Virus record (IMG/VR): IMGVR_UViG_3300042544_003310 | Coordinates: 124,001-188,000 of that record | DNA from: a virus | Length of the DNA: 64,000 bases | Direction: 5' to 3' (one strand) | Notes under the pieces: generated by a model | Seen by the model: the letters and a program-made list of their open reading frames with translations, nothing else | Database searches by the model: none | What the model was told of the DNA's origin: nothing | Program-made: the position numbers and the translations under genes | In this document: in pieces, positions 1,380 through 49,527 of the stretch | Position numbering within the stretch: position 1 is the first letter of the stretch | How the letters are laid out: each line of letters opens with the position of its first letter

Positions 1380-1580
1380 ATGACACTTTCTCATTGTTAC
1401 AACACACGGCTAATCAGGATGAGTATTCAAGAAGCCAACAGTCGTATCTGTTGGTGTGCTGATAATTTTGGTGACCGGGATATCAAGTGGACTGTGCGAT
1501 GCCACGACAGAAGTCGTTATGAATGGTGGTTTACAAATAAGGATGATTTAATTTGGTTTGGCCTTGTTTGGGAAAGTTGA
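1380..1580 (+). CDS. LTW-family small protein, copy 1
   Basis: A 66-residue member of the window's repeated small-protein family. It has the WCADNFG segment (family WC-x-x-x-x-G) at about residues 25-31 and the C-terminal signature WWFTNKDDLIWFGLVWES, where the usual L-T-W is L-V-W. ATG 1419 would give a shorter form starting MSIQEA. The function is unknown. Conserved Trp, Cys and acidic positions with diverged sequences suggest an old, maintained expansion rather than recent duplication. Confidence 0.7.
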   Translation: MTLSHCYNTRLIRMSIQEANSRICWCADNFGDRDIKWTVRCHDRSRYEWWFTNKDDLIWFGLVWES

Positions 1581-1641
1581 CTGAACAACAGGGTGTGTTA
1601 AGTTTCAGATTGTTGAAACACTCGTGTATGGAGTAGGAAAA

Positions 1642-1920
1642 ATGAACACTCGCGTTTCTGAGTCTCAGCGTCGGGAAAATTCTCGAGCTATTGCTCGTAG
1701 GGATAAATGGCGTCAACAATATGTGGTTGTGGTGAAGGCTATTCGTGAACTCAAAAGCCAAACTCGCGGCCGGCCATATGATCCGGTGATCAAAGTGCAA
1801 CTGCGTACAATGAGGCAGCTGGCTTGCGACATGATGTTTGAACGGACGCATTACATCCGTTTTGATCTGGTGAATACAGCATATCCTTATGCAGCTACAA
1901 CACTGGAACAAGCTGCATGA
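1642..1920 (+). CDS. Hypothetical basic protein (92 aa)
   Basis: Start chosen at 1642 because GGAGTAGGA lies just upstream. The protein is rich in Arg/Lys with helical heptad-like spacing (SESQRRENSRAIARRDKWRQ) and could bind nucleic acid, but no known fold is recognised. Its stop overlaps the next start (ATGA, 1917-1920), so it is the first gene of a coupled pair. Confidence 0.65.
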   Translation: MNTRVSESQRRENSRAIARRDKWRQQYVVVVKAIRELKSQTRGRPYDPVIKVQLRTMRQLACDMMFERTHYIRFDLVNTAYPYAATTLEQAA

Positions 1921-2432
1921 ACAAAGAAACTGTGTTAATGCAGGAGGTAATTGTAAATTATCACCCGCAATTCGCTGACAGCACTCAACTTCGTGAGATC
2001 GGCATGTTGCGGCCAGAGATTTTCAAGGTGGAAATGCTGATTGAAGAATGTCTGGCGGCATGGGGTCCTTACAACTTGGTCAGAGGGGATCATCAAGATT
2101 TCAGTGATGGAAGTGATTGTAAAACTGCAAGTATTCGATCAGAACCGGTTAAAGCTGGTACAGCATCTCATAAAGGTGAAATCTCAGGTGTACAAACCAG
2201 TGCTGGTGTTGTCAAGCAGGGAGCATTACGGTGTGTAGTTTATAACCCTTGCGAAAACAATATCTTGTATTTTTACTTACCCAAAGAGTTTTGGACACAA
2301 AATATCAATCGGCATCCCACAACTGGTATGGGACGGATCTTTTTCACGTATAATCGTAACACAATGGTAATTCCCAAACTTATTCAATATCAAGTGAATA
2401 ATTTTGAAGAATTAGCAAGGACCACAGGGTAA
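1917..2432 (+). CDS. Hypothetical protein (171 aa)
   Basis: Coupled to the preceding gene by an ATGA overlap. It has an N-terminal mixed region, a polar low-complexity middle (SDGSDCKTASIRSEP, residues about 62-76) and a more ordered C-terminal half with aromatic strands (NNILYFYLPKEFW, GMGRIFFTYNRNT). This suggests a beta-rich C-terminal domain. No family is recognised. It directly precedes a run of four LTW-family genes. Confidence 0.6.
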   Translation: MNKETVLMQEVIVNYHPQFADSTQLREIGMLRPEIFKVEMLIEECLAAWGPYNLVRGDHQDFSDGSDCKTASIRSEPVKAGTASHKGEISGVQTSAGVVKQGALRCVVYNPCENNILYFYLPKEFWTQNINRHPTTGMGRIFFTYNRNTMVIPKLIQYQVNNFEELARTTG

Positions 2433-2437
2433 CAAGC

Positions 2438-2623
2438 ATGCAGAACCTGGGTGCAGAACTTTGGCCCCACAGAGTTGAAACTCTGGGGGGCAGTGATCAA
2501 GCTGGCATGCGTGGTTGGCTTGAGCGGAACGTGGACTGCACTGCTTGGTTCTTTGCAGCAGCCAATGTTGTGTATTTTTCGCACAAAGAAGATGCTATGC
2601 GATTCAGTTTGATTTGGACATGA
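2438..2623 (+). CDS. LTW-family small protein, copy 2
   Basis: 61 residues. It keeps the Trp-containing middle (GWLERNV, DCTAWFFAAANVVYF) and the C-terminal signature FSHKEDAMRFSLIWT (family F-x4-DA-x-x-F-x-L-T-W). The last codons TGG ACA TGA overlap the next start ATGA at 2620-2623. First of four consecutive family members. Confidence 0.7.
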   Translation: MQNLGAELWPHRVETLGGSDQAGMRGWLERNVDCTAWFFAAANVVYFSHKEDAMRFSLIWT

Positions 2624-2832
2624 AGTATTGGGCAGCAACCACGTTGGATGAGCCCAGACGTCAGGAAATGTCACGCTGGTGCAACCAAAGTTTTGGCTAC
2701 ACTGGGTGGATGGTTCACCCCCAGTTTGGGCAATGTGAGGAAGAATGCTATCTCAAATGGAGTTTTTGGTATCAAGCGGATGTTGTTCTTTTCACCTTGG
2801 TTTGGGATGTCGCTGCCAATGAAGATAAGTGA
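2621..2832 (+). CDS. LTW-family small protein, copy 3
   Basis: 70 residues beginning MKYWAATTLDE. Contains RWCNQSFGYTGW (the WC...G segment) and the C-terminal YLKWSFWYQADVVLFTLVWD signature, followed by a short acidic tail. The start overlaps the previous stop. An in-frame TTG formed with the upstream terminal Trp codon (2615) is an alternative start. The product is of unknown function. Confidence 0.65.
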
Positions 2833-3020
2833 ACCAACGTGGGACAAAATTATAGCCTATTACCAAACAAAATCTCACATAGATGATTATAATTGGGCGA
2901 GCTTCAAACAGTGGGTATGTACAACCTATAACGTTGATAAAGTCTATTTGGGTGTTGAGGTTGAACTTGTTTTTTATCTCCCAAGAAGATGAGGCTGTGT
3001 TCGCATTAAGTTGGCTATAA
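2819..3020 (+). pseudogene. LTW-family copy 4, interrupted by a +1 shift at a T run
   Basis: The ORF from ATG 2819 (MKISEPTWDK..., with FKQWVCTTY as the WC-like segment) stops at 2992 with LVFYLPRR, which does not fit the family. In the +1 frame directly after the T6 run at 2970-2975 the sequence reads FFISQEDEAVFALSWL and ends at 3020, one base before the next start at 3021. This restores the family C-terminus exactly, so one extra T breaks the gene. It could be real decay, length variation, programmed shifting or an assembly error. Confidence 0.7.
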
Positions 3021-3218
3021 ATGGGCCCTACACCGTGGAGCCACTTGCCTTATGAAGTTACCTTGCCCATCAACTCAGTTCACAATCTGTTGAAGATCAG
3101 CATCTGGTGCAACAACAACTTTGGTGACCAACCCATCAAATGGATGTATATTGGGCAAGGTCGCTGGTTGTTTCCTTCAGAGGAGCAAGCTGCTGAGTTT
3201 GCGTTGATTTGGACATGA
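3021..3218 (+). CDS. LTW-family small protein, copy 5
   Basis: 65 residues. ISIWCNNNFGDQPIKW matches copy 1 (CWCADNFGDRDIKW) closely, and the C-terminus WLFPSEEQAAEFALIWT carries the signature with L-I-W-T. Copies 1 and 5 are the closest visible pair, which suggests a duplication flanking copies 2-4. Starts directly after the shifted end of copy 4. Confidence 0.7.
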   Translation: MGPTPWSHLPYEVTLPINSVHNLLKISIWCNNNFGDQPIKWMYIGQGRWLFPSEEQAAEFALIWT

Positions 3219-3298: not shown

Positions 3299-3310
3299 TG
3301 GAGTATGACA

Positions 3311-6406: not shown

Positions 6407-7618
6407 ATGAGCAAGTTCAGTTGCCCTGTGGTGCGTGTGGCCGCAGTCGAAGAACATCCGAATGCGGATCGCCTTTCTCTTGTGCGCCTTGAAGGCCTCG
6501 GTTATCTCTGCATCGCAAACAAACTAGAGGATGGTAGCCCGCGCTACAAGCCCGGTGACTGGGTCGTATACATTCCCTCAGCCTCGGTGCTGCCTGAATG
6601 GCTGCTCAAGGACATGGGATTTTGGAACGAAGACGCTGGTAAGGGTGTGCTGGCAGGCAGTGATGGCAACCGTGTGAAGCCACTCAAGCTGCGTGGTATT
6701 TTCAGCGAAGGTGTGCTGTATGGGCTCATTGCATATGGTGATGACGATTGCCTTTCTGCTGATTTTGGGTCGGCGACGGATGTACATGTAGTAGGCAAAG
6801 ACAGTCTTGAATATCCAGTCAAGCTAGGCGAGGATGCTGCTGCAATCTTGGGCATCACCAGGTGGGAGCCGCCCATTCCCGCTGCGATGTCTGGTGAAGT
6901 TGCCAGTGTTGCTGAGGCTGCTCTTACCTACGATTTTCAGCGTTGGGAGAGCGTGCCTGACATCTTCGAACCTGGTGAGGTGGTGGTGGCCCAAGAAAAA
7001 ATTCATGGATCTTGTACCATCATCCAGTACTTCCCAGGCATGGACCATCCCGAGATGTTCCCCGACCATGCAGGCTACCGCAGCATCACTGTCAGCAGCA
7101 AGGGACTAGGCGGTCAGGGTTTGGTGTTCAAGAACAACGAAGCCAACGCCAACAACCTCTATGTGCGGGCACTTGGCACACTGCTAGCCGACCATGACCT
7201 CGCCGGGCTCCTCCACAGGATGAGCAAGGTGGACGGCGGTGCTCATCCGGTGGCTATCCTGGGAGAAGTTTTCGGCAAGGGCGTGCAGGACCTCGACTAC
7301 GGCACCACTAAGCCCACGTTCCGGGTGTTCGACATGCGGATCGGGCGGGAGTGGCTAAGTCCCGATGCCGTGGCCTACTGGGCAAAGGACCTGCCCTGTG
7401 TACCTACCCTCTACACTGGCCCCTTTGACCAAACTGCCATTGAGGCTGTGAGAGACGGTGTCACAACGGTGGGTGGCACCAATGTGCGGGAAGGTGTGGT
7501 GGTGCGCAGCCTGGTTCCCACCGAGCATCCCCTGCACGGTAGGAAAATCTGCAAATTCATCTCTCCGGCGTATCTGCTCCGCCGAGTGAAGAACGGCGAG
7601 GCAACGGAGTTCAACTGA
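6407..7618 (+). CDS. RNA ligase of the DraRnl (Rnl5) type
   Basis: A 403-residue ATP-dependent RNA ligase that seals breaks in RNA, likely tRNA or other duplex RNA. The N-terminal about 150 residues look like an OB-fold domain (VVRVAAVEEHPNADRLSLVR, as in tRNA-binding EMAP-like OB folds), as in the Deinococcus enzyme. The nucleotidyltransferase domain follows: motif I EKIHGS with the AMP-accepting Lys198, LGEVFG (motif III-like, about 273-278), motif IV REGVVVR (361-367) and motif V KICKF (380-384). All key residues appear intact. It has its own early promoter. A diverged copy of its last 31 codons lies 400 bp downstream (8027-8122). Confidence 0.85.
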   Translation: MSKFSCPVVRVAAVEEHPNADRLSLVRLEGLGYLCIANKLEDGSPRYKPGDWVVYIPSASVLPEWLLKDMGFWNEDAGKGVLAGSDGNRVKPLKLRGIFSEGVLYGLIAYGDDDCLSADFGSATDVHVVGKDSLEYPVKLGEDAAAILGITRWEPPIPAAMSGEVASVAEAALTYDFQRWESVPDIFEPGEVVVAQEKIHGSCTIIQYFPGMDHPEMFPDHAGYRSITVSSKGLGGQGLVFKNNEANANNLYVRALGTLLADHDLAGLLHRMSKVDGGAHPVAILGEVFGKGVQDLDYGTTKPTFRVFDMRIGREWLSPDAVAYWAKDLPCVPTLYTGPFDQTAIEAVRDGVTTVGGTNVREGVVVRSLVPTEHPLHGRKICKFISPAYLLRRVKNGEATEFN

Positions 7619-8413: not shown

Positions 8414-8439
8414 CCGGCTGGCCATTTCAGGATGCCGCC

Positions 8440-11577: not shown

Positions 11578-11915
11578 AATTGGGACAACACCTACACCAA
11601 CGCCAAATGCTGTTGGATCAAGAGCTGTTGAGAACCACGTTGTTGGCAGTGCAACGTGAGCGAGAACGTGTGCATGACCAGCACTATGATCTGGAACGCT
11701 TTAAAAGCCAGATCATCAGTTGTGTTTTGGAAAATCGGCCCATGCTCATGTTTACTCCTGGAAATAACTGGACTGACCCTCAAAATCCTGAACACCCTCC
11801 ACGTTTTGTGTGCCATCGAGACCACAAGTTATGGCAAGAGTTCCTAGTTTGGTTGGAAAGTGAACACATGGAAATCCAATACCATGGATGGAATTTCACT
11901 GTGATAGCCAAGTGA
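11574..11915 (+). CDS. Hypothetical protein (113 aa)
   Basis: GTG start overlapping the previous stop. The N-terminal half is a basic coiled coil (RQMLLDQELLRTTLLAVQRE). The C-terminal half is Trp/His-rich with PRFVCHRDHKLWQEFLVWLE and ends in a strand HGWNFTVIAK. It has no LTW signature although it sits next to a family member. Coupled by GTGA overlap to the gene at 11912. Confidence 0.6.
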   Translation: MKLGQHLHQRQMLLDQELLRTTLLAVQRERERVHDQHYDLERFKSQIISCVLENRPMLMFTPGNNWTDPQNPEHPPRFVCHRDHKLWQEFLVWLESEHMEIQYHGWNFTVIAK

Positions 11916-12196
11916 CAGAAGACAGAGTCTTCCACAATGCGCTGCTTTTGTTTCCCAAAGATCTTTTCTGCTGCTCTGTTACACTTGGCGAGGAATACTA
12001 CCGCCAACAATACGAAATCTTGGATTGGCTACGCCAACAAGGACCTGGTGACACTGGAATTGGTGATCCACCACAAGGTGAGTGCGTTTGGGCATATACA
12101 CAGCTTTTTGGATACCAGTATATCGCTTTCCCCACTAGGGAACTGGTGACGCATTTTCAGCTGGTTTGGCAAAACAACACAGGACATAGTGGTTGA
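11912..12196 (+). CDS. LTW-family small protein, copy 6
   Basis: 94 residues from a GTG that overlaps the previous stop (ATG 11888 is a longer option). It has the helix ILDWLRQQG in place of the WC...G segment and the C-terminal signature YIAFPTRELVTHFQLVWQ. It is more diverged than the tandem copies; the signature and size place it in the family. A promoter for the HNH gene overlaps its 3' end. Confidence 0.6.
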   Translation: MTEDRVFHNALLLFPKDLFCCSVTLGEEYYRQQYEILDWLRQQGPGDTGIGDPPQGECVWAYTQLFGYQYIAFPTRELVTHFQLVWQNNTGHSG

Positions 12197-15561: not shown

Positions 15562-15752
15562 TGGCCTACAAAGGTGACACGGTGAAGTTTCGAGTGAGCA
15601 GTCCCAACGGCACTTGGCGCACAGTCTCCACGCTGGAAGAGGCTGAGCAAGAGATCAAAACTCTGGTGGACACCTATGGTGTGGCCTGGGCCGCAGTGGA
15701 TAGGATTGAGACCACAAGGATCCTTGTTCGGCAAGTCAAGGCTGATGAGTGA
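15558..15752 (+). CDS. Hypothetical small protein (64 aa)
   Basis: Overlaps the ligase stop (ATGATG; either ATG may be used). A beta-helix-beta pattern (DTVKFRVSSPNGTWRTVSTL then EEAEQEIKTLVDTYG) with Trp residues ends in QVKADE. Its last codons GCT GAT GAG TGA overlap the start of the next gene (ATGAGTGA). Lies between the RNA ligase and a four-gene LTW cluster. No family recognised. Confidence 0.6.
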   Translation: MMAYKGDTVKFRVSSPNGTWRTVSTLEEAEQEIKTLVDTYGVAWAAVDRIETTRILVRQVKADE

Positions 15753-15972
15753 CTCTTACCTTGTAACTTTGGTAGCGCCTATGTGCGATGATTTTGATCA
15801 AGTGTGTGATTGGTGCATGCAACAATGGCCGTGTAAGGAGCGGCGCTGGCATATACACTGGGCTGGATTAACAACTAGAGGCAAGGGGTGGCAAATCACT
15901 TGCAGTTTCTGGCACCAAGATGATCTCACCATGTTCCTGCTCACATGGGCGCACCTGGTTGAATCTAGATAA
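15745..15972 (+). CDS. LTW-family small protein, copy 7
   Basis: 75 residues: MSDSYLVTLVAPMCDDFDQV, then CDWCMQQWP (WC segment), then W-rich strands and SFWHQDDLTMFLLTWAHLVE. It is a full-length textbook member with N-terminal strand, acidic turn, WC helix and terminal signature extended by AHLVESR. Copies 7-10 share the L-L-T-W-x-H-L-V-(D/E) ending, so they form a recent sub-family in tandem. Start overlaps the previous stop. Confidence 0.75.
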   Translation: MSDSYLVTLVAPMCDDFDQVCDWCMQQWPCKERRWHIHWAGLTTRGKGWQITCSFWHQDDLTMFLLTWAHLVESR

Positions 15973-15985
15973 ACAGGCGATAGTG

Positions 15986-16225
15986 ATGGCTATACTGCCC
16001 TACACAGCCACATTGGTAGCACCCAAACTCCGGGAGCTTGACCAAGTTCAGGAATGGTGCCTACAAATGTGGCCTTGTACTCATCGAGCCACATGGTATC
16101 AAGATAATATGACAATGCAAGTATTTGCAAGGTTTGAATTCAAATGCACCTGGAGTTTTCAGTTTCGAGAAGATCTCACCATGTTCCTGCTGACCTGGAG
16201 TCATTTGGTGGACAGCCATGAGTGA
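15986..16225 (+). CDS. LTW-family small protein, copy 8
   Basis: 79 residues: TATLVAPKLRELDQVQEWCL then QMWPC, WSFQFREDLTMFLLTWSHLV. Very similar to copy 7 in layout, with APxxxxLDQVxxWCxQxWPC shared. GTG 15983 is an alternative start. Stop GAG TGA overlaps the next ATG (16218). Tandem duplication is the simplest origin. Confidence 0.75.
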   Translation: MAILPYTATLVAPKLRELDQVQEWCLQMWPCTHRATWYQDNMTMQVFARFEFKCTWSFQFREDLTMFLLTWSHLVDSHE

Positions 16226-16472
16226 TGCATATGTTGTGACAGTGATGGCTTACTCACTTGAAGAATTTATCCCAGTTTACAACTGGTGCTGCCGCATGTG
16301 GGGCGATACAAGCTTGTATCAGACTTGGTGTATGGGTTGGGCTAATTCAGATCTTTTGCGTGGAGTATATGTTTGCGATTGGGCTTTTCAACACAAGGAT
16401 GATCTCATCATGTTTTTACTGACTTGGGGTCATTTGGTTGACTCTAGCCAAGAGGCAGAAAGTTGTGAATGA
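16218..16472 (+). CDS. LTW-family small protein, copy 9
   Basis: 84 residues: MSDAYVVTVMAYSLEEFIPV, then YNWCCRMWGD, then WAFQHKDDLIMFLLTWGHLV and a polar tail (DSSQEAESCE). Keeps every family position. Overlaps copy 8 by 8 bases and copy 10 by 8 bases. Confidence 0.75.
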   Translation: MSDAYVVTVMAYSLEEFIPVYNWCCRMWGDTSLYQTWCMGWANSDLLRGVYVCDWAFQHKDDLIMFLLTWGHLVDSSQEAESCE

Positions 16473-16741
16473 CAAGTTCAAGATAACATTGAGTGCCCAC
16501 ACAAAGGGAGAACTCGAAGCTGTGAATCTATGGTGCCAACAGTTGTGGCCAGGTGAGTGCGGGACAGTATGGGACAGCGGATGGCCACTACCTACAACTT
16601 TTTTTTAGAGCAGGTGGCATCACTGCGTGGCGTTGCAGTTGGTGGTTGACACGCAGGGAAGATCATGCTATGTTCCTGTTGACATGGGCACATTTGGTAG
16701 AGCCGCCCCAGAATTACACAAGGTATCCTCAAAGTGAATAA
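16465..16741 (+). pseudogene. LTW-family copy 10, interrupted by a +1 shift at a T8 run
   Basis: From GTG 16465 the frame reads VNDKFKITLSAHTKGELEAV, NLWCQQLWPGE and stops at 16608 directly after the T8 run (16599-16606). In the +1 frame from 16607 it continues RAGGITAWRCSWWLTRREDH, AMFLLTWAHLVE to 16741, the normal family C-terminus. Together the two halves make one family member with one extra T. The second half has its own ATG (16553), so a short C-terminal fragment might be made. Decay, slippage or assembly error are all possible. Confidence 0.75.
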
Positions 16742-19315: not shown

Positions 19316-19591
19316 ATGAGCCAAGACTTGGACGACGATTGGGATTGGGAAGAATTTTTCCGTCAATTTCCCTGTGGTGCGGCTGTGATTTTTGGTAACC
19401 ATGTGGTGCATGCTGAGGGGTATCCTGAACCAGTCTCGGACATTGACGAAACTGAATTGCGCAAAGAGTTGGCAGAAGATCACGAGCTGGAACTGACCCT
19501 TCTCCGAGATTACTCAGTCATACGATTGGAAGGAGATAACTGGCGCCAGTTGATGCAGCAGTATGCAGGTGCAGATGGCACGCAGAAATAA
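19316..19591 (+). CDS. Hypothetical acidic protein (91 aa)
   Basis: MSQDLDDDWDWEEFFRQFPC: a very acidic, Trp-rich start, then a Val/Ile strand region (GAAVIFGNHVVHAEGY) and an acidic helix (DETELRKELAEDHELELTLL). No family recognised. Preceded by AAGGATTGAAGAA. Overlaps the next LTW gene by 17 bases. Confidence 0.6.
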   Translation: MSQDLDDDWDWEEFFRQFPCGAAVIFGNHVVHAEGYPEPVSDIDETELRKELAEDHELELTLLRDYSVIRLEGDNWRQLMQQYAGADGTQK

Positions 19592-19814
19592 GACGCCACA
19601 ACGGATCAAACCCCGCCGAGGATGGCACCGCGTGGTGTTGCCCAATGTACCCAATCCTTGGCGTGAGTTACTGACGGGCATGCCATCAACTGTGTCAAAG
19701 ATTGACGACTGGCTGGCAGAAAACACCTCTGGCAAATGTGAGCAGTTTCGCTACAACACATGGGACTTCAAACGCCAAGAAGATGCCCTGTTGTTTACCT
19801 TGACGTGGGGATAG
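19575..19814 (+). CDS. LTW-family small protein, copy 11
   Basis: 79 residues with an unusual basic start (MARRNKTPQRIKPRRGWHRV), then WLAENTSGKCEQFRYNTWDF and KRQEDALLFTLTWG. The terminal signature is perfect (F-K-R-Q-E-D-A-L-L-F-T-L-T-W). First of five consecutive members covering 19575-20820. Confidence 0.7.
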   Translation: MARRNKTPQRIKPRRGWHRVVLPNVPNPWRELLTGMPSTVSKIDDWLAENTSGKCEQFRYNTWDFKRQEDALLFTLTWG

Positions 19815-19815: not shown

Positions 19816-20151
19816 ATGGAAATAAAAATCACCAAACAAACTGTCCTTGCCCCTGTGCGTAAGTTGAGCGCAACTTGGACAATGGAAAAACCACAAACAT
19901 TGAAACACACTGTGAGCGATGAGATCGAGCAACTTATCCAGGAAGAGATCAACAGTGAAATTTTAGCCGAAATATATCGAGTCCAAGGATGGTATCTTGT
20001 ACCCCTCACTGCTCACAGCGTCTGGACAAAAGGCGCAGTGACGCCATGGCTCTTGGAACATTACCCAGATGGTGGTTACTATCTCTTCACTGGTGGTTGC
20101 ATGTTCCGGGACAAAGAGATGGCTGTGGAGTTTGAGCTCACATGGACATAA
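19816..20151 (+). CDS. LTW-family protein, copy 12 (long form, 111 aa)
   Basis: MEIKITKQTVLAPVRKLSAT, a helical acidic middle (SDEIEQLIQEEINSEILAEI) absent from other copies, then VTPWLLEHYPDGGYYLF and MFRDKEMAVEFELTWT. The insertion makes it the longest copy. Its end CTC ACA TGG ACA TAA contains the ATG of the next gene. Confidence 0.7.
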   Translation: MEIKITKQTVLAPVRKLSATWTMEKPQTLKHTVSDEIEQLIQEEINSEILAEIYRVQGWYLVPLTAHSVWTKGAVTPWLLEHYPDGGYYLFTGGCMFRDKEMAVEFELTWT

Positions 20152-20354
20152 TACCCAAGTTCAGTTTCCTGCATCGTGTGGAATATCGGGATCTGCCCGA
20201 AGACCCGAGAGTTATGAACTATGGAGAATCTCGCACACAAATGATCATATGGTGCTGGAAAAATCTTCCTTTGAGCGATTGGTCGCATGACCCCTTGGGT
20301 ATTGATTTCAAGCATCAAGAAGGTCTCATGCAGTTTATGTTAACGTGGACATGA
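20142..20354 (+). CDS. LTW-family small protein, copy 13
   Basis: 70 residues. The ATG lies inside the ACA-TGG of the previous gene's L-T-W codons (10-base overlap). MIIWCWKNLPLSDW is the WC segment and FKHQEGLMQFMLTWT the signature. The terminal ACG TGG gives GTG 20345, the start of the next gene in the same register. Confidence 0.7.
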   Translation: MDIIPKFSFLHRVEYRDLPEDPRVMNYGESRTQMIIWCWKNLPLSDWSHDPLGIDFKHQEGLMQFMLTWT

Positions 20355-20572
20355 TTGTTACCAAGTGCTTGCCCGGCGGTGGATGGTATGCCGAAGTCAT
20401 GCTGGACGATAGTGAATGGCCACCAATTGATGAAAATGACCAATGGTTAGACAGACCCATTCGACGTTGGGTAAGAGAACACACTGAGGGAGCACATTTT
20501 TTCAGTTTTAGGGGAACAATACTGTTCAGTAACGAAAGTGATCTCACAGCGTTTGTGGTCTCTTGGTCATAA
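20345..20572 (+). CDS. LTW-family small protein, copy 14
   Basis: 75 residues from GTG 20345, formed by the upstream L-T-W codons (ATG 20351 is an alternative). WLDRPIRRWVREHTEGAHFF and FSNESDLTAFVVSWS carry a relaxed signature (V-V-S-W for L-x-L-T-W). The terminal TCT TGG supplies TTG 20563 for the next gene. Confidence 0.65.
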   Translation: MDMIVTKCLPGGGWYAEVMLDDSEWPPIDENDQWLDRPIRRWVREHTEGAHFFSFRGTILFSNESDLTAFVVSWS

Positions 20573-20820
20573 CACGTAGAGTGGCCCGCTTTTTGGAAAA
20601 GGAGAAGGATCCTCTCTACCCTTATCCGGTTGTGTTTGACAACATGGAAGTCTCTGAGGCTGAAATACTTCGAGCCTGGCTAAGACAGCATGGTGGCCGA
20701 GAAAACGAGGATTGGGCTTGGACTCATGGATGGTGGGGAGATACCGTTCACTGTTTTAGGTTTCGAGATCCTTGCACAGCAGAGTTTTTCCGCTTGACTT
20801 GGCACCCAACAAGCGTATAG
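20563..20820 (+). CDS. LTW-family small protein, copy 15
   Basis: 85 residues from TTG 20563 overlapping the previous end. VARFLEKEKDPLYPYPVVFD is a new N-terminus; RAWLRQHGGRENEDWAW resembles the WC helix region, and FRFRDPCTAEFFRLTWHPTS the signature. The rare TTG start is supported by the shared register with copies 13 and 14. Confidence 0.6.
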   Translation: MVITRRVARFLEKEKDPLYPYPVVFDNMEVSEAEILRAWLRQHGGRENEDWAWTHGWWGDTVHCFRFRDPCTAEFFRLTWHPTSV

Positions 20821-20995: not shown

Positions 20996-21410
20996 TCCCA
21001 AAACTGTTTGGCACGAGGATGGAACCAGCCCAGTTCCTGGCTCGCGTGTATTTGTTTTTGGCAGCAATCTCGCTGGCATTCACGGTGCCGGAGCGGCCCG
21101 GGAGGCTGCCGCTAAATTTGGTGCCCTGTATGGTTGCGGCCATGGCTGGCAACCTCTCAATCAAAGCTATGCCATTCCCACCAAGGACCGTCGAATCCAC
21201 ACCCTAGCTTTGGATGAGATCAAACTCTATATTGATGAATTTGTGCGACTCACACAAAGCCCGTTTGTTATGAATAGTGGTTATTGGGTCACCCGAGTGG
21301 GCTGTGGCCTAGCTGGTTACCAAGACCACGACATTGCACCATTGTTCCGTGGCGCAGTAAATTGCAGTTTTCCTTTGCCTTGGCGCCAGTATTTGGAGCT
21401 TGAGACTTGA
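20982..21410 (+). CDS. Macro-domain-like phage protein (A1S_2505 type)
   Basis: 142 residues. VFVFGSNLAGIHGAGAAREA (residues about 23-42), SYAIPTKDRR and VGCGLAGYQDHDIAPLF match a family found in very many phages and bacteria. The fold is related to macro domains that bind or hydrolyse ADP-ribose. The G-S-N-L-A-G-x-H-G-A-G-A-A loop is intact. It may remove or sense ADP-ribose, which fits with the putative ADP-ribosyltransferase at 53221 and with NAD-based host defences. The activity is inferred. Confidence 0.75.
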   Translation: MNTNNPKTVWHEDGTSPVPGSRVFVFGSNLAGIHGAGAAREAAAKFGALYGCGHGWQPLNQSYAIPTKDRRIHTLALDEIKLYIDEFVRLTQSPFVMNSGYWVTRVGCGLAGYQDHDIAPLFRGAVNCSFPLPWRQYLELET

Positions 21411-21715
21411 TTGACATAGCTTTTCCTAATAGCCGCATTGGGCACTACATGCGGGTCACAAAGAGGTCTGGAAAGTGGGTGATGCAACAAAGCTACATTG
21501 CACTGATTCACAAAATCGCCACCACCGAAGACTGCTATTACCTTGACTTCTACAAAAGCCGAGATAATGCCACAATGCTGGAGTGGTGCCAAAACGCATG
21601 GGGTCCGCCAGAGGTTGGTGAAACATGGTGGCAAAAGCTCACTGGGCAAGCTCAACTCACACTTGTGATACGTGGCGAAGAGCGTGTCACGCAATGGCAA
21701 CTAACCTGGGAGTAA
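21407..21715 (+). CDS. LTW-family protein, copy 16
   Basis: 102 residues from TTG 21407 (overlaps previous stop), or 88 from ATG 21449. MLEWCQNAWGPPEVGETWWQ is the WC...G...W segment and LVIRGEERVTQWQLTWE the end. In the signature the first Phe is replaced, but L-T-W is kept. An added N-terminal beta region (VMQQSYIALIHKIATTED) is unlike other copies. Confidence 0.65.
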   Translation: MIDIAFPNSRIGHYMRVTKRSGKWVMQQSYIALIHKIATTEDCYYLDFYKSRDNATMLEWCQNAWGPPEVGETWWQKLTGQAQLTLVIRGEERVTQWQLTWE

Positions 21716-21719: not shown

Positions 21720-22007
21720 ATGAGCAGTGAATATCAGCATTTGAAAACTCTTGCATCGGAAATTTTCCGGCTGATGGGCGAGGAGAGTTTCACAGAGATA
21801 GACAGCATCTTGAGCAATATGCAGCCTACACTTCAAACAGAAGTAGAGATGGTGGCACTGCTACGCTACAGTTTTACAGCTCGGCATCATCTCACCTGTT
21901 ACCATATCTATCTTGACGCAGTAGCACAGGAATTGCTGCGTCGTGGCAAAGATGTGGAGAGGATTTTGCAGGGACTGCCCTTCTACAGCATCGATAGGTA
22001 TCCATGA
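21720..22007 (+). CDS. Hypothetical helical protein (95 aa)
   Basis: All-helical by composition: HLKTLASEIFRLMGEESFTE, MVALLRYSFTARHHLTCY, then AVAQELLRRGKDVERILQGL. The M-V-A-L-L-R-x-x-F-x-x-R-x-x-L pattern is known to me from small T4-like phage proteins without function. Stop overlaps the next ATG (ATGA). Confidence 0.65.
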   Translation: MSSEYQHLKTLASEIFRLMGEESFTEIDSILSNMQPTLQTEVEMVALLRYSFTARHHLTCYHIYLDAVAQELLRRGKDVERILQGLPFYSIDRYP

Positions 22008-22270
22008 GTCAGCAGGCTGCGCAGACTAGGGAGGCACATTTGTTGAATCACCAACCAGTTGACTGGGCAGATGATGTGATGGGGTTTCCCTACGCAGTCG
22101 CATGCAAGGTCACAGTGGTGGATTTGTGGCTTCGAACCAACTGGTGCAAGCAAAACATTGGCTGCTGGTTGGTAGATTGGACTCACACATATGATAACCA
22201 CCGGCAGGTGTATTGGTACTGTTTCTCTAGTCAGGAGCAATTGACACAGTTTCAACTCACATGGTGTTGA
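22004..22270 (+). CDS. LTW-family small protein, copy 17
   Basis: 88 residues: VVDLWLRTNWCKQNIGCW (WC...G...W) and YWYCFSSQEQLTQFQLTWC (signature with Q in place of D). N-terminal part MSQQAAQTREAHLLNHQPVD is polar. Coupled to the gene before. Confidence 0.7.
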   Translation: MSQQAAQTREAHLLNHQPVDWADDVMGFPYAVACKVTVVDLWLRTNWCKQNIGCWLVDWTHTYDNHRQVYWYCFSSQEQLTQFQLTWC

Positions 22271-23149: not shown

Positions 23150-23424
23150 TGGGTTGGTTTGATAACTGCACAAAGGTTTGTCTATCGGGCCAAATACCCT
23201 GTAACTGTGATTTCATGCCGGGTCAGCAGGTGTTTCTCACAAGCAAGGACAGAGATCGTCATGCTGAAGACTATGCAAGTAGGAAAACCAATTGGAGTGC
23301 GCCTTTTGAACCTTGGGTTGTGGAAACATGGCGCAGGTGTAGTGAAGCAACAGGCGCAGACAAAGTTGCCCAGAAAGTGCGTGACCGTTTGACCAACAGG
23401 CCTGTCTTTGCCAAACGACCTTAA
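23149..23424 (+). CDS. Cys-containing hypothetical protein (91 aa)
   Basis: MGWFDNCTKVCLSGQIPCNC has four Cys in 20 residues (possible metal site), then a charged region (SKDRDRHAEDYASRKTNW) and a helical basic tail. Coupled to the preceding gene; overlaps the next TTG start. No family recognised. Confidence 0.6.
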   Translation: MGWFDNCTKVCLSGQIPCNCDFMPGQQVFLTSKDRDRHAEDYASRKTNWSAPFEPWVVETWRRCSEATGADKVAQKVRDRLTNRPVFAKRP

Positions 23425-23704
23425 TACCTGCTGTATTTTTGAATTTCCTATGGGAGGTGTTACCAGCTGGGTAGTGCGGTTGCCCAACAGCACCAACGGC
23501 CACGAACCCCAAGTAGTCAATTGGCTAATTGAGAGATTTGGCATCGACGATCACGAATATTGGACAAAAATCTTCAACCAGAAGAGAGAGACGCCCAACA
23601 GCCTTTGGAAACGAGGCAGCATCTGCACCTATGTGTATCAGGAATACTGGTTCACCAACAGAGATGATGCATTTGAGACCTATTTGGTGTTCTCAAAAAT
23701 TTAA
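23408..23704 (+). CDS. LTW-family protein, copy 18 (relaxed end)
   Basis: 98 residues from TTG 23408, or 84 from ATG 23450. VVNWLIERFGIDDHEYW is the helix-G-W region and YWFTNRDDAFETYLVFSKI the signature, with the final Trp replaced by Phe. The F-T-N-R-D-D-A block is nearly the same as copy 1 (F-T-N-K-D-D-L). Confidence 0.6.
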   Translation: MPNDLNTCCIFEFPMGGVTSWVVRLPNSTNGHEPQVVNWLIERFGIDDHEYWTKIFNQKRETPNSLWKRGSICTYVYQEYWFTNRDDAFETYLVFSKI

Positions 23705-41800: not shown

Positions 41801-44800
41801 ATTCGTCCACTGGCAAATATTGCATCAACCCAGGACGAGCATACGCCGGATCAATTCCCTGTCGTTGTCCTTGGCGTATCCTGCCATCTCTTAAATCATA
41901 CCACAATTGGGTGTTGCCACTGGTGTAAGGTGCGGCACCATATTCTGCATTCCACCAAAGTGGTTGCTGACTGAAGCCCAACATTTCCCAAGGGCAAGAG
42001 TTGGGGCGATCAGTATCAAAAAAGAGAAAATAGATACCGCGCCAATGACCAGGCACTGGGTTGTTTTCTTGATCAGTGCAACTGCTGTAATTCCAACTAA
42101 AGGGATCATCTATTTTGTAGGTTGTGTTCTTAAATGCATCCAACTGATTTGTTGTTAACCAACGTTCAAAAACTGGATACAACATTGTTAACTGATCTTT
42201 GTAAGAGTAGTTTGTGGTTCTCCACTTGCCAGAAAATATCGTTTTGATATCAAGCTTTTGCACACTGTCAGGATTTCTGTAGCTGGCTGGCAGAGAGTTG
42301 AACAAATTTACTTCCAATTGCATCCAAGCTCTAGCCACAGGATGCGTCAACAGTTGAGGATCAACGGTGCTTGATTGCTGGTCAGCTATTGTTCCCAAGT
42401 CAGCACCGTTAAAATCTTGTAATACAACAACTGCACCATTGTGGCATCGGAGACTCAAGGGACTGTTGGGCTGGGTGACATCAAAAAATGCTGTTGGCAC
42501 AAAACTGGGGGTGACTCCCAGCCGGGCTGCGCTTGCTGGGACAAATGTGGGTGTTATTGACTTTTCACTGCAATATCGGCCAGGAACGCCGTCAAAGCCG
42601 CTCATTGCCCAAGGACTGCTAAGTGTTTTGCCGACATTTATGGATTTCAATGCCTTATCTAGCCATTCACTAATGGGATTGGCCAAAGTCAGGCCTCCAC
42701 TGTTGAATAAGTTAACTAAACTGTTGATGTATTTGTTGTAAAAGCGGAGATATTCTTTTTGTGACCATTGCATAACACCAATGGGATCCAACAATGCATT
42801 ACTGCTGGTCAAAGCAGATGTTTGTGCTATGCTGTTCAAAATCATGGTTTTCAACAAAGGTGCACGATGTTGAAGTATTACGGTTCCAAGACTTTGGTTT
42901 TGTGCAGTATCACGCCAATTATTTGCACCAATTATATTGCCAATAATATTTGATTGGTTACCAATAACAGTAATCAAATGATTGATGATATTTTGCCTTG
43001 TGATCGTAGAGACCTCAAGGTTATTGGGATTGGCTTCAAGATTTTTAGGAATTTCAAAATAGCCAGTTGTTGCTATGTTGGTAATGTTTTGCCATGTTTT
43101 TACCACTACATTGGAATTGGGCTGCACACTGTTTGCTAGAGTCAAAACTTTGCCACTTACAGTGTATTGATCAGGAGTCAACAATACACCGCTTACTTCA
43201 ACATTTATTGCACTAGGACCAGGAGCACCTGTCCCAGGTGCTTGATCCAATGTGAATGTTTTTTGACTTTCTTGTGTATAAAATTGATTCACCACATATT
43301 GTCTACTCAACACAGGGCTTTTGAACCAATTGTTTTGATACACTGGTTGAGTAGTAACAGGATCAACAGTTTGCCAAAACTTGAATCCGCTGATGTCTAC
43401 TCTTAAATTATTGGGTTGGTATGTCCAAGTGTTTTGACTCAATGTGTTTTCAAATGTTAATTCATTTGCTGAAACCAGCAAAGAGCCTTGGTTTATTGCA
43501 GCCAGTTGACTTGGATCATAAGAGAACAATGATGATCCACTAAAGCTGCTGAGCGGATAAATGCTGGGATCACTCAAACTGTTGCCGTCAATGTCAAATA
43601 ATTCAAATAAGGGACTTTGACTGTCCACAGTTTGTTTCCAGCTTTGTGCACTTACCCAACTGTTCGTGCTGCTTTGAAATCTCAAATAAGTGTCAAAAAA
43701 TCTGTTAAGAGGATTTCCGCTGGCCACATACAGACTGTCATTGTTTTTGGGCGCACCTGTAACATCACTCTGGTTTGGCAATAATTGTAAGGTCAGCTTG
43801 TTATCGCTGCGCAATCCGCTAACTCGATAAATTCGATTATTGGCTTGACCGTCTACTAAGTTGGTGAACAAAATTGTCATGCCATCGTCAAGACTTATGC
43901 CGTCGACCAATAAGGGATTGCTGTTGCTTTGGCTTCGTCCAATCAAACTGCCTAAGTCAGTGGTGAAGCTATCAACTACTGTAACCCTACCTCTACCAAT
44001 AGTGCCAAAATTCCAGAGTTTAGTGGTTTTGTCAAAACATATGATAGGATACTTGGCAACTAGCGCGTTAACATCTTGCAAGAGTGTTTGGCTTTGCACC
44101 AATACATCTCTATGGAACCAACGGTTTCTGATACTCCAGGGATTTTGGTTACTGCTGCCGCGATGCATAACAACATACGCAGGTGTAACCAACTTATCAA
44201 CGCCGTCCCAAGGAGTGCTGTCGTATTCTTTGGGATTGTCCCAGCGTATCTTGATACTGCTGTCTGTGTCGTCAACAAAGTAAATTTTTCTGCCCACGCC
44301 TTCAATAATCAACTCACGATCTCTAAGAGCTATATCCAAGTCAAGAGTAGGTTTGATTTTTAGCCCAGTGGAAAACACAAGGGGGTGTGTGGCGCCATTT
44401 ATTATAGATGAAGGATTATTGGCAATTGCGTATGTGCCAGCATATACATATGCTGATTCATTACTAACAGAGCTTAGGTCTGTTATGTCCAATAGCGTAA
44501 TAGTATCTGGTCCATCACTTAACCAAACATATTCTTGAAAATTCAACCACATGTCCACATCACATGGTAAACCAAAGCTGTAGTATTCTTGTTCAAACAA
44601 GCGATTATGATCGTTAACCAACGCACCTTGACTGCGCAACTTGTTCAACAAATCTTCATAAAACAAAATGTGCGAAACTGTGTCACTGCCTTGGCTGCGG
44701 CTTATTGCTGTTGCCTCAACTTGATAATCTTGGCGGGATTTAGAGGTCTCTACGACATAAAAATCCTTTTTGGGATTATACCAACTGGGCATTCGACCAA

Positions 44801-44933
44801 TATAGTTGTTCAAATATTCAACTTTTTCAGGTTGAAACAAATGGTCAGCTGTGGCTGCGAAAAATTTACGAAGGATATCGGTTTGTAATACCTCGGGTAG
44901 CAGATCGCTTATTCTACGTTTTGTATCGCTCAT
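32880..44933 (-). CDS. Giant baseplate/tail structural protein (4017 aa)
   Basis: N-terminus MSDTKRRISDLLPEVLQTDI, then FLYN-type tail motifs. Repeated beta modules (F-x-L...V-x-V-W-x-N-G-x-x-L...Y-x-x-x-G-x-x-I-x-F...P-x-x-G-D) occur near residues 560, 2715, 2785, 3025, 3235, 3470, 3600 and 3700. G-Y-x-x-x-D-x-x-x-V-S-G-G modules occur near 3070, 3310 and 3345. A phage-tail module with V-D-G-I-x-V-N-L-G-D-R-I-I-V-K-N-Q lies near 2260. It is overlapped by the gp6-like stop (ATGA). It probably replaces several separate T4 baseplate proteins and may be the wedge/periphery scaffold. Frame is open over 12 kb, so the DNA is well assembled here. Confidence 0.8.
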   Translation of the reverse strand: MSDTKRRISDLLPEVLQTDILRKFFAATADHLFQPEKVEYLNNYIGRMPSWYNPKKDFYVVETSKSRQDYQVEATAISRSQGSDTVSHILFYEDLLNKLRSQGALVNDHNRLFEQEYYSFGLPCDVDMWLNFQEYVWLSDGPDTITLLDITDLSSVSNESAYVYAGTYAIANNPSSIINGATHPLVFSTGLKIKPTLDLDIALRDRELIIEGVGRKIYFVDDTDSSIKIRWDNPKEYDSTPWDGVDKLVTPAYVVMHRGSSNQNPWSIRNRWFHRDVLVQSQTLLQDVNALVAKYPIICFDKTTKLWNFGTIGRGRVTVVDSFTTDLGSLIGRSQSNSNPLLVDGISLDDGMTILFTNLVDGQANNRIYRVSGLRSDNKLTLQLLPNQSDVTGAPKNNDSLYVASGNPLNRFFDTYLRFQSSTNSWVSAQSWKQTVDSQSPLFELFDIDGNSLSDPSIYPLSSFSGSSLFSYDPSQLAAINQGSLLVSANELTFENTLSQNTWTYQPNNLRVDISGFKFWQTVDPVTTQPVYQNNWFKSPVLSRQYVVNQFYTQESQKTFTLDQAPGTGAPGPSAINVEVSGVLLTPDQYTVSGKVLTLANSVQPNSNVVVKTWQNITNIATTGYFEIPKNLEANPNNLEVSTITRQNIINHLITVIGNQSNIIGNIIGANNWRDTAQNQSLGTVILQHRAPLLKTMILNSIAQTSALTSSNALLDPIGVMQWSQKEYLRFYNKYINSLVNLFNSGGLTLANPISEWLDKALKSINVGKTLSSPWAMSGFDGVPGRYCSEKSITPTFVPASAARLGVTPSFVPTAFFDVTQPNSPLSLRCHNGAVVVLQDFNGADLGTIADQQSSTVDPQLLTHPVARAWMQLEVNLFNSLPASYRNPDSVQKLDIKTIFSGKWRTTNYSYKDQLTMLYPVFERWLTTNQLDAFKNTTYKIDDPFSWNYSSCTDQENNPVPGHWRGIYFLFFDTDRPNSCPWEMLGFSQQPLWWNAEYGAAPYTSGNTQLWYDLRDGRIRQGQRQGIDPAYARPGLMQYLPVDEFGQLLPPGPARIVTTLPSEIEARADWKFGDRGPLENVWLTAVDSDQIWAQIGYLAKPAQFIEYLWDGPRAQQIFATQTNSQWVWKDYRKRISNSDIFVHREDPQNVTTLSSDLSYYGSCGIQHWISEYLINDSRSVTEYFGNVIRNSDVTLGYRAGGFIDGTSVKLLVDSFGLSSNDSLLIPQEDVTNNLIRSASLKEFFYSGVIVEYRGSEGYRVIGYDSYDPNFYVIPSNLTGPKTTVIVDKIKVIEYKLGLPSVKKVPYGTILPTQQDVFDFLVSLGRWQVSQGWIFDEYSSTTGQLQDWSLSGREFLFWSQGPWAAGNYIALSPLALKTKFVTSFGTIQNIGGIVNGSYTILDRGGRPIQVQNIDFLRIDDQVSVRPLNDQGIFGIRLYTTGLEHALLFQNKTIFGDIVYDPLFDVRQSRFKIQTYKSMDWAGRLEAPGYLVTQTTSTIGDRIIVNNQILANFEKTVDDIRKLYNIDVPTPYNYSDSTGMHTNATSALSQALPKRYNMLATHLVGYQQREYLTNLLVDETTQFQFYQGMIKQKGTKGTIDSLLRNTQLVDANESFSYYEEYAFRLGTYGSNELIHGIDVLLLQTEVRSNPQLVEFFSGSIEDLAYDDTITITPKDSRVLYKSEATPNFSLRSHYGSAPGDLPNSGYVLFSEATYYVKDQAELFSLSQTLETKNTPLQAHDRVWQFIDTAIGWNIYKVCRPAWQIQQTTPVTLNQTTISTSLPHNLQNGNILVLSGVTGVNGRLDGTFSVFNVTRNTFDVQATTSATGANGQVLQYWSIRFPTYAAFNNATPPGGWTQRDFAYVDGNQDEPWKVYQKYGVWFEYRREDKKVDTSLLLTSTLYNKTTLQTLAHLNIWDPSKGALPGLVNEEVTYRTHWDPASYNAGDSRLYQVDPSTAWGPNQVGQTWWDLSTTRFIDYEIGTDSYRRRHWGQIAPGISIDIYEWIRSLVPPSSWAGAVTAGNSAATGGDQTPTGSVKGADYPYVLASERNESGQYTNAYYFWVKNKTTVPNVPDRKISVASLSQIVESPQTQNQSWWAAISSTGALLANIGSFLDENNTVWQVNYTSRENVDKIYKEWTLLRPNDPLSTPTLDLWSKMCDSLVEFNNVGNSVPNLRLPEMSKYGMLTRPSQSWFKDGITARRAFVKKINSLLSSSSVPPLDDPDRLGWLQYFQSVEPQPLQKNTKANARVATTTALDTVYYPGENGKGATLTYNGSSYSALVVDGITVNLGDRIIVKNQNPVTLTSSIVTQTPNQNGIYDVVDIGSLNNPWILMRSADFDSIDDNLIDAQVLVLEGASQLLPTTYIQNNKNILKLGIDPLEWQIVRPVKGILPCNWDYYVATLAARDALIPSLIPGNKVLVDVSAATNNRWTIWLYQGQNQFSLERMQAWDTNQVWYLVDWYASGISADTLIGATVATLADRDTLVVDSGTLVKVLNTGNGRWNLFEYTPDSETLWTVVGVQNGNLQLSDNLYDYEKYSMGFSGGSYAVDYQGWEYDTRLELSYILQGLWPENNKAVGLLKVDSDVNERNMVFFELVSHVLAEQNFVDWCFKTSFINLKGFSQQLLSSAYYDPSKIDSLEKYIQEVKPYHVVIRQFVDYRVVSDYWESNSSDLDNPPYIDLNNNVSILNVSNPVDLAILSGDTIYKPWYDNYKASSGALIETVTLTGNGSTKSLQLSTSTKPENVLVYWNSKLSQAWNLRPGDNSIIDLVFVPNTNDVVQAYVYASSYLERKTFIGDGISQIVSMTNPITWQFTQVRWNNLLTNDYEINLDDSTLVELNFTPGVGDIVTVTVFDIANLSVRSTRTKIVLDRLACVPAEDYYSPGYSENTVPNRFIDTIEEMKALTNLPNGEIIKVIYDNIGLWSLFVFNQGIFELVGYQLDNGAADRIQQLYQPTPSMPPPNDPLLISGCAPKGTVLDGLDFNLNGRWGEPVWDGVLGWDNTSQEVDRLFDQYINGGARPQYWVFKGDGLQTKFALPQAPQAPNDLRVWVNGNLQNTPLNWTVKNWITAVDVANQGLGYSVNDILSVSGGTYTIPAQLKVVNTSLTGAILKIEVVFPGAYTLTPSGTAVQASGGSGVNATFVLRWGGTSLEFALAPLSAVAKPNIWVAEAGSTFESALGGTLDAVYDGQGLSRPHVEGNHPEELFPLQGKETLIIDVANQPTVGFGNVLSESWLGDSITDRFYIGQPVFSAADIIVSVGGILKTLGPTSDYVYDPSSNSIVFVFPPVGSVVITSFGFGGATPGLGNWSIVNQGIDYNLNDTIVLSDTSQSYTSTTVLVTAIRATAVNVNQPGSGYKVGDLLYFKYGSGTQTLVIKVDSTTAFGGVAGQITAVSIVNQGYYTQPSISQNEWYTNGTGIGGLITPQWGVASILPLTRGSYLNKNVGLQQVGVTISGGAPGTGTGFSIANYSSHIQETKTVVFDITSFVITMDQPIGANTILMTWNGVPTVSFGVNPADNRQIGLGFTPLPGDTIVILVYSSQYQSLQKLQSLVVTLPLLTYPLNLNTPNNPLSGFNPAQSNNALVYSNGKRLKPPYLLSAIGDNNTTAYNLAIFPDPGSFIQVWLNASVLPNTEYTLAGNQIIFTTAPSDKSFIYIEVADPVAQNYDYQIQGTNLLLASWAVVDGDTIVVRTWGEDSASAFYNDVWTGDSSNQYLFTNTPLEFQSVQVWLNGSSLSWILDYTIVKTGNSWYLKLGNHYTLTAADEIQAYYPTALPSKDGVAFRAVTNVYNDTQYLRLGNQDRTVLTQVLNWNDQEIFVANGDTLLEPDDKRPGVIWIEGERIEYFDKAPAASTAFPNQAVLRKINRGTLGTPGGISDKFVAQYWSSTGNSDLYPVTITNAGEWQAGMVNAYVIVDGKLQNDWMLVSNPSNAAPGFYLQFPSQTLAPIFEPPPAGNKNIGLIIFKQDWKTTAMSHPTTSVVRDGSVRQVIPGGYQWPYGGLGLQYSSTYQAQFLLSQPGSIPA

Positions 44934-48774: not shown

Positions 48775-48780
48775 AATACT

Positions 48781-48788
48781 TATTTAGA
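48781..48788 (-). promoter_or_regulatory. T4-type late promoter-like element, possibly leaderless
   Basis: TCTAAATA on the minus strand. Only 6 bases (AGTATT) separate it from the gp25-like ATG, which is where T4 late transcription would begin. Confidence 0.55.
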
Positions 48789-48794
48789 GAAGAT

Positions 48795-48822
48795 TTGACA
48801 CTCTAAAATCTTGCCACAAAAT
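48795..48822 (+). promoter_or_regulatory. Candidate early promoter for the phosphoribosyltransferase
   Basis: TTGACA (48795-48800), 16 bp, CAAAAT (48817-48822). ATG at 48828 has no ribosome site, so the message may be leaderless. Divergent from the late promoter of the gp25-like gene. Confidence 0.5.
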
Positions 48823-48827
48823 AAGTG

Positions 48828-49331
48828 ATGAATAAAAAACATTTGAGTTTTGATGATATTACTGTTCTTACCTACAGTCTTTGCGATAATATAGAGGCGT
48901 CAGGTTGGCAGCCCTCGATTGTTGTTGGCATTACTAGGGGTGGCCTCCTTACAGCCAAAATGTTGAGTCATTATTGGAAAGTGCCTATGTGCACAATTGA
49001 TGTGAGCTTGCGGGACTATACCTTATGGAGCGAAGATTTCAATACCAATTTGGTAATTGAGGCATTCAATGGTCACAATCTTCTTGTGGTTGATGATATA
49101 AACGACAGTGGTGCAACAGGGATCAAGATCAAAAACACTTGGACCACTGTAGTGAACAGTTTGCCAGAACATCAATCATTATGGCCCAAAAACAATATCA
49201 AATTTGGCGTGCTGTTGGAAAATGAAGTCAGCTCTCACCAAAGTGACTTTTGGGGCTCAAAAATCAACAAGGAACAAGATCCCATTTGGTATGTTTTTCC
49301 TTGGGAGATCCAACGGGGCAAGGGTGATTGA
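48828..49331 (+). CDS. Phosphoribosyltransferase (type I fold, Gpt-like)
   Basis: 167 residues. VVGITRGGL (32-40, substrate region) and LLVVDDINDSGATG (85-98), the PRPP-binding motif with two acidic residues and D-S-G-A-T, identify a purine-type PRTase. The pattern V-G-I-x-R-G-G-L followed by a late P-W-E-I resembles xanthine-guanine phosphoribosyltransferases. It would salvage purine bases. GTG 48825 is a variant start. Confidence 0.8.
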   Translation: MNKKHLSFDDITVLTYSLCDNIEASGWQPSIVVGITRGGLLTAKMLSHYWKVPMCTIDVSLRDYTLWSEDFNTNLVIEAFNGHNLLVVDDINDSGATGIKIKNTWTTVVNSLPEHQSLWPKNNIKFGVLLENEVSSHQSDFWGSKINKEQDPIWYVFPWEIQRGKGD

Positions 49332-49368
49332 AAAAACACACAATCTATTGTTTCCTTGGAGCGTGAGA

Positions 49369-49527
49369 ATGAACTTTGATGTGGTGGATTGGACACCTAT
49401 GGACCATTGGTGTGTAGAGCATTTTGGCAATGAAGGTGTGTTGTGGAGCATTGGTTGGGAGAATGGCACGTGGGATTTTCAAAAATTTGAGGATGCAATG
49501 ATGATGTGGCTGACATGGGTGAGATAA
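49369..49527 (+). CDS. LTW-family small protein, copy 19
   Basis: 52 residues from ATG 49369 behind GGAG (GTG 49324 gives a longer form that overlaps the PRTase). Contains MDHWCVEHFGNEGVLW and WDFQKFEDAMMMWLTWVR. It is the only clear member in the right arm, far from the main clusters. The L-T-W codons (CTG ACA TGG) supply the ATG of the next gene. Confidence 0.7.
   Translation: MNFDVVDWTPMDHWCVEHFGNEGVLWSIGWENGTWDFQKFEDAMMMWLTWVR

Follow-up and report, generated by a model that had tools for sequence, protein, structure and literature searches.

The window, by which we mean the whole 64,000-nucleotide stretch analysed here, covers bases 124001-188000 in a virus record 223,007 bases long; this record is a fragment, because a nearly identical relative spans 328,603 bases. 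The phage is T4-like: a baseplate protein encoded at 44930-48310 matches those of several jumbo phages, among them Sinorhizobium phage Phosso (40%) and Agrobacterium phage Atu_ph07 (39%), and a gene for gp23 is present in the 328-kb relative. Along the plus strand of the window lie the small genes listed in Table 1, whose products share a C-terminal LTW motif and are called LTW proteins in the following.

Table 1. LTW copies in the window; E, profile E-value, with LOO for leave-one-out
Feature	Position	Strand	Evidence and remarks
LTW member, 66 aa	1380..1580	+	E 6.8e-21 as training member; LOO E 9.6e-8
LTW member, 61 aa	2438..2623	+	LOO E 4.7e-8
LTW member, ATG overlaps stop of preceding copy (ATGA)	2620..2832	+	LOO E 3.1e-7
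LTW copy, probably frameshifted, with its pieces in two frames	2819..3020	+	Break near T6 run
LTW member, 65 aa	3021..3218	+	LOO E 3.3e-12; AlphaFold beta-alpha-beta-beta-alpha
LTW member, start 11888 or 11912	11888..12196	+	LOO E 9.4e-5
LTW member, local array copy 1	15745..15972	+	LOO E 1.7e-14
LTW member, local array copy 2	15986..16225	+	LOO E 6.2e-14
LTW member, local array copy 3	16218..16472	+	LOO E 1.3e-11
Frameshifted LTW copy, local array copy 4	16465..16741	+	Break at T8 run
LTW member, start 19563 or 19575	19563..19814	+	LOO E 7.8e-6; L168 ortholog 78% identical
Fusion, gp23-like residues 1-56 and C-terminal LTW domain	19816..20151	+	LTW LOO E 8.8e-6
LTW member, ATG within Thr-Trp codons of preceding gene	20142..20354	+	LOO E 8.5e-8
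LTW member, most divergent copy	20345..20572	+	LOO E 0.029; orthologs in L133, L168
LTW member	20563..20820	+	LOO E 1.3e-5
LTW member	21407..21715	+	LOO E 0.0044; wider profile 9.3e-5
LTW member	22004..22270	+	LOO E 9.5e-8
Doubtful or degenerate LTW member	23408..23704	+	E 0.035-0.089
LTW member, likely start GTG 49324	49324..49527	+	LOO E 4.8e-7

The initial annotation had listed 19 members, and 16 of these are intact ORFs. Another one, the fourth copy of the local array, is confirmed as frameshifted, since its two halves are found in the ORFs 16423-16608 (N-terminal, E 4e-5) and 16526-16741 (C-terminal, E 9e-8); for the broken copy at 2819, the C-terminal part alone is not significant (E 0.33), and its membership is plausible only by position and pattern, while the copy at 23408 is doubtful. 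Both broken sequences, 2819..3020 and 16465..16741, recur unchanged in four IMG/VR contigs that belong to this phage. Two of the annotated starts had to be moved: the ATG given as 2621 lies at 2620, and the one at 49369 is an internal ATG, as the conserved first strand (FPWSV) is included only when translation starts at the upstream GTG, 49324.

As for the gene layout of LTW arrays in general, reading frames overlap in 125 of 143 adjacent same-strand pairs, often by ATGA, and this layout fits translationally coupled polycistronic units. In 73 of the 125 overlapping pairs an NTG stands at the spot of the LTW TGG codon. The possibility that the motif is kept because this codon supplies the next start was rejected, for such an NTG shares its frame with the frequent ATGA overlap and so is mostly a by-product. 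The arrays lie on the strand opposite to the sampled structural genes, and their neighbours are accessory genes encoding RNA ligases (RNA repair), a kinase-phosphatase, nudix, PTH2 (peptidyl-tRNA hydrolase), SPFH and AAA proteins.

The LTW domain and its predicted fold

Profile searches confirmed that the LTW family is real and larger than first noted. A profile built from the alignment of the 16 intact window copies recovers all 16 training copies, and when each copy is searched with a profile of the other 15, the E-values range from 1.7e-14 to 0.03. Moreover, the 16-copy profile finds 13 additional ORFs outside the window in the same record (E 3e-8 to 8e-4), none of which is in the training set, while the top reversed or shuffled ORF reaches E 0.34, or 0.06-0.08 after iteration. 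The claim of one family thus stands, with a common alignment, 13 unseen copies and no hit among the controls. A wider profile brings the record to 29 copies at E<=0.01, all of them on the plus strand. As several profiles were iterated, the later E-values are optimistic, and it is the held-out results that carry the argument.

As the initial annotation had supposed, the LTW domain belongs to no named family: it has no match among the curated models of Pfam-A, PHROGs v4 and NCBIfam 20, where no family is matched by more than two members and the gp23 matches fall outside the LTW domain. The copies stayed hidden because pairwise searches rarely connect them; tblastn of one single window copy against phages gave no match. 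The full divergent alignment is too variable for pattern search, and profiles on chosen records together with small sub-alignments worked. A profile search of PDB sequences gave chance matches only, and no confirmed relative came from 84,980 genomes of bacteria and archaea in a pattern search with just one motif variant, which is a weak test. No description of the family was found in the literature searched, most subscription journals being outside its scope; the family, its fold, its copy number and its fusions with capsid pieces appear undescribed in the material searched.

The domain opens with an N-terminal strand, often P-[YFWH]-x-V, followed by a helix that carries an invariant W. Next come two strands, the first of which begins at W while the second closes with F, and last a C-terminal helix of the pattern D-A-x-x-F-x-L-T-W. 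The WC motif first described for the helix stands in its Trp but not in its Cys, the pattern being W-[C or L]. Likewise the C-terminal signature is present in a looser form, where the T position can also hold A, R, V, S or I and F takes the place of the last W in about one fifth of the wider family, with the caution that hmmalign overstates conservation at both end Trp columns. A conserved Lys, that of FKL, is present in roughly three of every four members of the wider family and absent from the window clade. The near-invariant core consists of large hydrophobics, namely the helix-1 W, the strand-2 W/Y, the strand-3 F and the A..F.L.W of the C-terminal helix. There is no enzyme signature in the near-invariant columns (W, W, F, L, W), none of which is an invariant polar residue, and the LTW proteins are small and probably non-enzymatic interaction modules.

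A compact fold shared across copies is supported by AlphaFold models made from alignments of the LTW family itself. The 3021-3218 protein is modelled in the order E-H-E-E-H (pLDDT 91.7, pTM 0.75), and the divergent 20345-20572 protein, with an alignment almost disjoint in family rows, shows the same core and one N-terminal strand in addition (pLDDT 84.1, pTM 0.73). Foldseek against BFVD returned dozens of uncharacterised uncultured-phage proteins with a probability near 1; the uncultured Caudovirales proteins A0A6J7WFP6, A0A6J5L4C8, A0A6J5LU01 and others, none of them named or characterised, have the same predicted fold (probability about 1.00) and are probably of the same family. Against PDB, neither model has a significant match (best E 1.4-1.6).

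The order beta-alpha-beta-beta-alpha corresponds to the first five elements of an RRM or ferredoxin-like fold, however the fourth strand is missing, as the models stop after the second helix with three core strands. With RRMs among the weak Foldseek matches (ranks 2 and 9 in one search), and RNA ligases and a kinase-phosphatase protein among the neighbours, the LTW proteins might be nucleic-acid-binding regulators, e.g. of phage mRNAs, on a shortened version of such a fold. We regard this as unlikely: the best PDB match has an E-value of 1.4, no RNP-type exposed aromatics are conserved beyond the core, and the net charge of the members spreads from -14 to +11 with a median of -2, which leaves no common basic face. 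On the same charge spread, both a uniformly acidic, DNA-mimicking family and a uniformly basic, nucleic-acid-binding one were rejected.

Distribution among huge phages and evolution of the copies

Other phages were searched for further members, and copies, often tens of them, were found in many huge T4-like phages. A profile of 71 diverse members (A7) counts 17 copies for a phage of 453 kb and 49 for Phosso, the Sinorhizobium phage available as an isolate. Four contigs that contributed no rows to the profile, with lengths of 436, 462, 465 and 417 kb, have 72, 73, 67 and 83 copies respectively. For the metagenomic contigs these are counts per contig, and since the contig set was picked by a DNA pattern for AM[LI]FKL[TAR]W, the counts give no estimate of the commonness of the family. 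In the 417-kb phage, one 12-kb locus holds 34 member ORFs, 21 on one strand and then 13 on the other. By the same profile PA5oct has three copies, and of the matches in Atu_ph07 three are good and four weak. A match to A7 is absent from T4, phiKZ, GAP32, RaK2, ME3, FLC9, S-PM2, P-SSM2, Vibrio 2.275.O, 121Q (NC_025447), phage G (NC_023719), XacN1, BcepSaruman, Kaldavass and phiKp_32.

Copies can be followed between phages as orthologs. Members at the loci of two huge phages (L202 and L203) can be joined into 22 reciprocal best pairs, which are almost all collinear. For 18 orthologous pairs dN/dS is 0.07-0.30 (pooled about 0.19), the values being those of the scorable pairs among those with more than 45% identity. 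For window members against relatives the gene-wide values are 0.05, 0.30 and 0.37, the lowest being that of 49324..49527 and its 83% identical ortholog in G003; they lie within the range of neighbouring accessory genes with measurable values (0.03-0.59). When the 12 most conserved columns are set aside, identity is 60% between orthologs and 11% between paralogs, where the core columns were chosen by low entropy on the same sequences. From this difference each copy seems to keep its own surface, and by these sequence comparisons the copies are under purifying selection and most of them look like old, individually constrained genes.

The arrays also gain or lose copies locally. Against the four copies at 15745-16741 the relative L168 has one, the single ortholog of 15986..16225 (L168:5983-6243, 58% identity), while the flanking DNA is 78-88% identical. 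Such local change from one to four copies, the tandem duplication itself and the two frameshifted copies are what would be seen if the expansion were mostly non-adaptive, that is, drifting tandem duplicates tolerated by large genomes; in G and 121Q, where more than 30 similar genes stand in tandem, such arrays have been interpreted as growth of the genome by duplication (PMC5646251). This explanation is already disfavoured, and we hold it to be quite improbable, as dN/dS is well under 1 in every scorable orthologous pair and the order and identity of the copies are preserved across phages. The LTW arrays resemble those of G and 121Q in being tandem duplications of jumbo phages, but their copies are mostly highly diverged and shared across phages as orthologs. 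Another expansion is that of zinc ribbons in Bacillus phage G, with about 35 copies (PMC7824862), which is likewise a lineage-specific expansion of a small protein of uncertain function in a jumbo phage, but these have metal-binding cysteines, whereas LTW proteins have no conserved Cys set.

The initial annotation had described the family as expanded, mostly tandem and strongly diverged, which is supported, and had likened it to rapidly evolving anti-host or decoy proteins, which is not supported in that wording. Hypervariable decoys under diversifying selection would agree with a paralog identity near background outside the core and with arrays that gain and lose copies; however, the gene-wide dN/dS of 0.05-0.37, together with the non-core positions that orthologs retain as their own, makes this a very improbable account of the family. 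What is left of the decoy claim is the local change in copy number and a few gp23-bearing members, which are as a capsid decoy would look.

Capsid segments and possible partners

Of the few members with a piece of the major capsid protein gp23, the fusion protein at 19816-20151 is the clearest. It matches PF07068, the T4 gp23 family, in its residues 1-56 only and not over the whole protein; the match, to positions 134-197 of the 376 in the profile, passes the curated cut-off with E 1.3e-6. The fusion protein is 43% identical over 56 aa to the gp23 of the same phage (E 3.7e-9). Its ortholog in another phage (L136) retains a weak gp23 match. In Phosso, the LTW member encoded by gene 170 starts with a different gp23 segment, around DAAxxYxPYVPL, and orthologous members in other huge phages have a C-terminal peptide resembling this segment, each of weak significance individually. 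At E<=0.05 the gp23 profile matches 5 of 404 members, compared with two among 4030 other ORFs and none among 4040 shuffles; the enrichment over other ORFs has a Fisher p of 1e-4, which is optimistic since related members are counted separately. Of 104 long members, two match gp23 in Pfam, and no other Pfam family recurs among them. Altogether capsid pieces are present in just about ten of the 404 members, and LTW proteins, with 60-250 aa and a common domain without Pfam match, are not capsid proteins.

A role of the family in head assembly or on the capsid, by decoration, by competition with gp23 or by regulation of the head protease, could account for gp23 segments fused to LTW domains in several architectures and for their enrichment. 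Still, we regard it as unlikely: most members have no gp23 piece, up to 83 copies have no obvious reason in head assembly, and for the PA5oct members gp209, gp210 and gp237 no detection in virions by mass spectrometry is noted, in contrast to several neighbouring proteins.

Since a constant core is combined with many individually maintained surfaces and no catalytic signature, the LTW proteins would form a set of specific binders. Our preferred, though tentative, reading, to which we give somewhat less than an even chance, is that one scaffold has been reused for many such binders, probably in host takeover or counter-defence, with some members as capsid mimics. The core would be the constant scaffold, and each paralog would present its own conserved binding surface to a different partner. 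The likeliest partners would be host proteins that are inhibited or redirected, defence proteins included, because the arrays sit among accessory genes on the strand opposite to the sampled structural genes; for this choice of targets we rely on gene neighbourhood and on what is generally known about accessory genes in phages. The members bearing gp23 pieces might mimic or bind capsid subunits. Against the reading of LTW proteins as specific binders of host proteins, it should be said that a position among accessory genes is no proof of early expression or of a defence role, and that variable surfaces could equally serve protein-protein contacts of the phage itself. A time-course transcriptome of PA5oct exists (cited in PMC6950013).

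Bacterial systems that sense the capsid are known, such as CapRel (PMC9712102) and a TIR system (PMC11312562). It is conceivable, though we consider it a long shot, that LTW is a binder scaffold invented by phages whose gp23-bearing members are capsid mimics, drawing such immune systems or assembly partners off the real capsids, and that huge phages thus possess a broad modular set of decoys and binders, all built on a single new fold; the decoy role of these members is an idea, not a result. Should such mimicry be real for some members, it would reveal how giant phages handle capsid-sensing immunity.

The function of small uncharacterised genes is named as an open question in a 2026 review of jumbo phages (PMC13282480), and the LTW family may explain a substantial block of them in some lineages, with 49 in Phosso and up to 83 in the 417-kb contig. 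The question becomes testable with a single fold, a single profile and a phage isolate that has 49 copies; and if the proteins are binders, they would constitute a library made by nature on a scaffold of 55 residues. Two LTW-type domains are present in some proteins of 218-252 aa, and these proteins are conserved in six huge phages.

Copy number, reading frame and domain number in the LTW family

The family of small proteins ending in the F-x(3,4)-D-A-x-x-F-x-L-T-W signature varies in local copy number, as a four-copy array of the window is matched by a lone copy in the related locus L168, and this copy has a start like that of the window's second copy and an end like that of the fourth. Such a chimeric likeness is the pattern that unequal recombination would leave. 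Two LTW copies of the window are frameshifted, each at a T run, and both have the same sequence in four contigs; they may be either true pseudogenes or slippage sites. Elsewhere, three LTW genes have starts embedded in the terminal Thr/Ser-Trp codons of the preceding LTW gene. Moreover, L225 encodes a single protein with two LTW domains, and with its relatives in G049, G054, G055, G056 and G058 (218-252 aa) this architecture is kept across six huge phages.

Features of the window and of other loci
Feature	Location	Detail
LTW array	window 15745-16741	four copies
Lone LTW copy	L168:5983-6243	one copy
Frameshift	window 16600-16610	T8 run
Frameshift	window, about 2978	T6 run
Embedded starts	window 20142, 20345, 20563	ATG, GTG, TTG
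Double-LTW protein	L225:1451-2152	
gp23 segment	L012:19301-19942 (record 79301-79942)	PF07068 positions 213-316, E 8e-5
gp23 N-terminal region	Phosso PV764938 182280-182546	PF07068 positions 9-62, E 4.6e-10
Epimerase, NAD-dependent	window 8287-9429	70% G+C
RNA-repair set	window 6407-7618, 14344-15561, 26068-27300	three genes
Giant ORF	window 32880-44933	4017 aa

Capsid-protein segments outside the family

A weak match to a segment of gp23, the T4-type major capsid protein, lies in a 213-aa ORF of this phage which is not among the LTW members. In the Sinorhizobium phage Phosso, the gp23 N-terminal region is carried by a stand-alone ORF, part of which is unannotated since gene 276 as annotated begins only at 182439; this piece presumably spans the part of gp23 where the T4 Gol peptide lies.

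Neighbouring genes

The epimerase gene is likely a recent acquisition, because its G+C content contrasts with the 48% of the window. The RNA-repair set consists of two ligases, one an RNA ligase and the other of the T4 Rnl1 type, together with a protein that combines a kinase with a metallophosphatase. The giant ORF adjoins a gp6-like baseplate gene, and both Phosso and the Agrobacterium jumbo phage Atu_ph07 have a large structural gene at the equivalent position.
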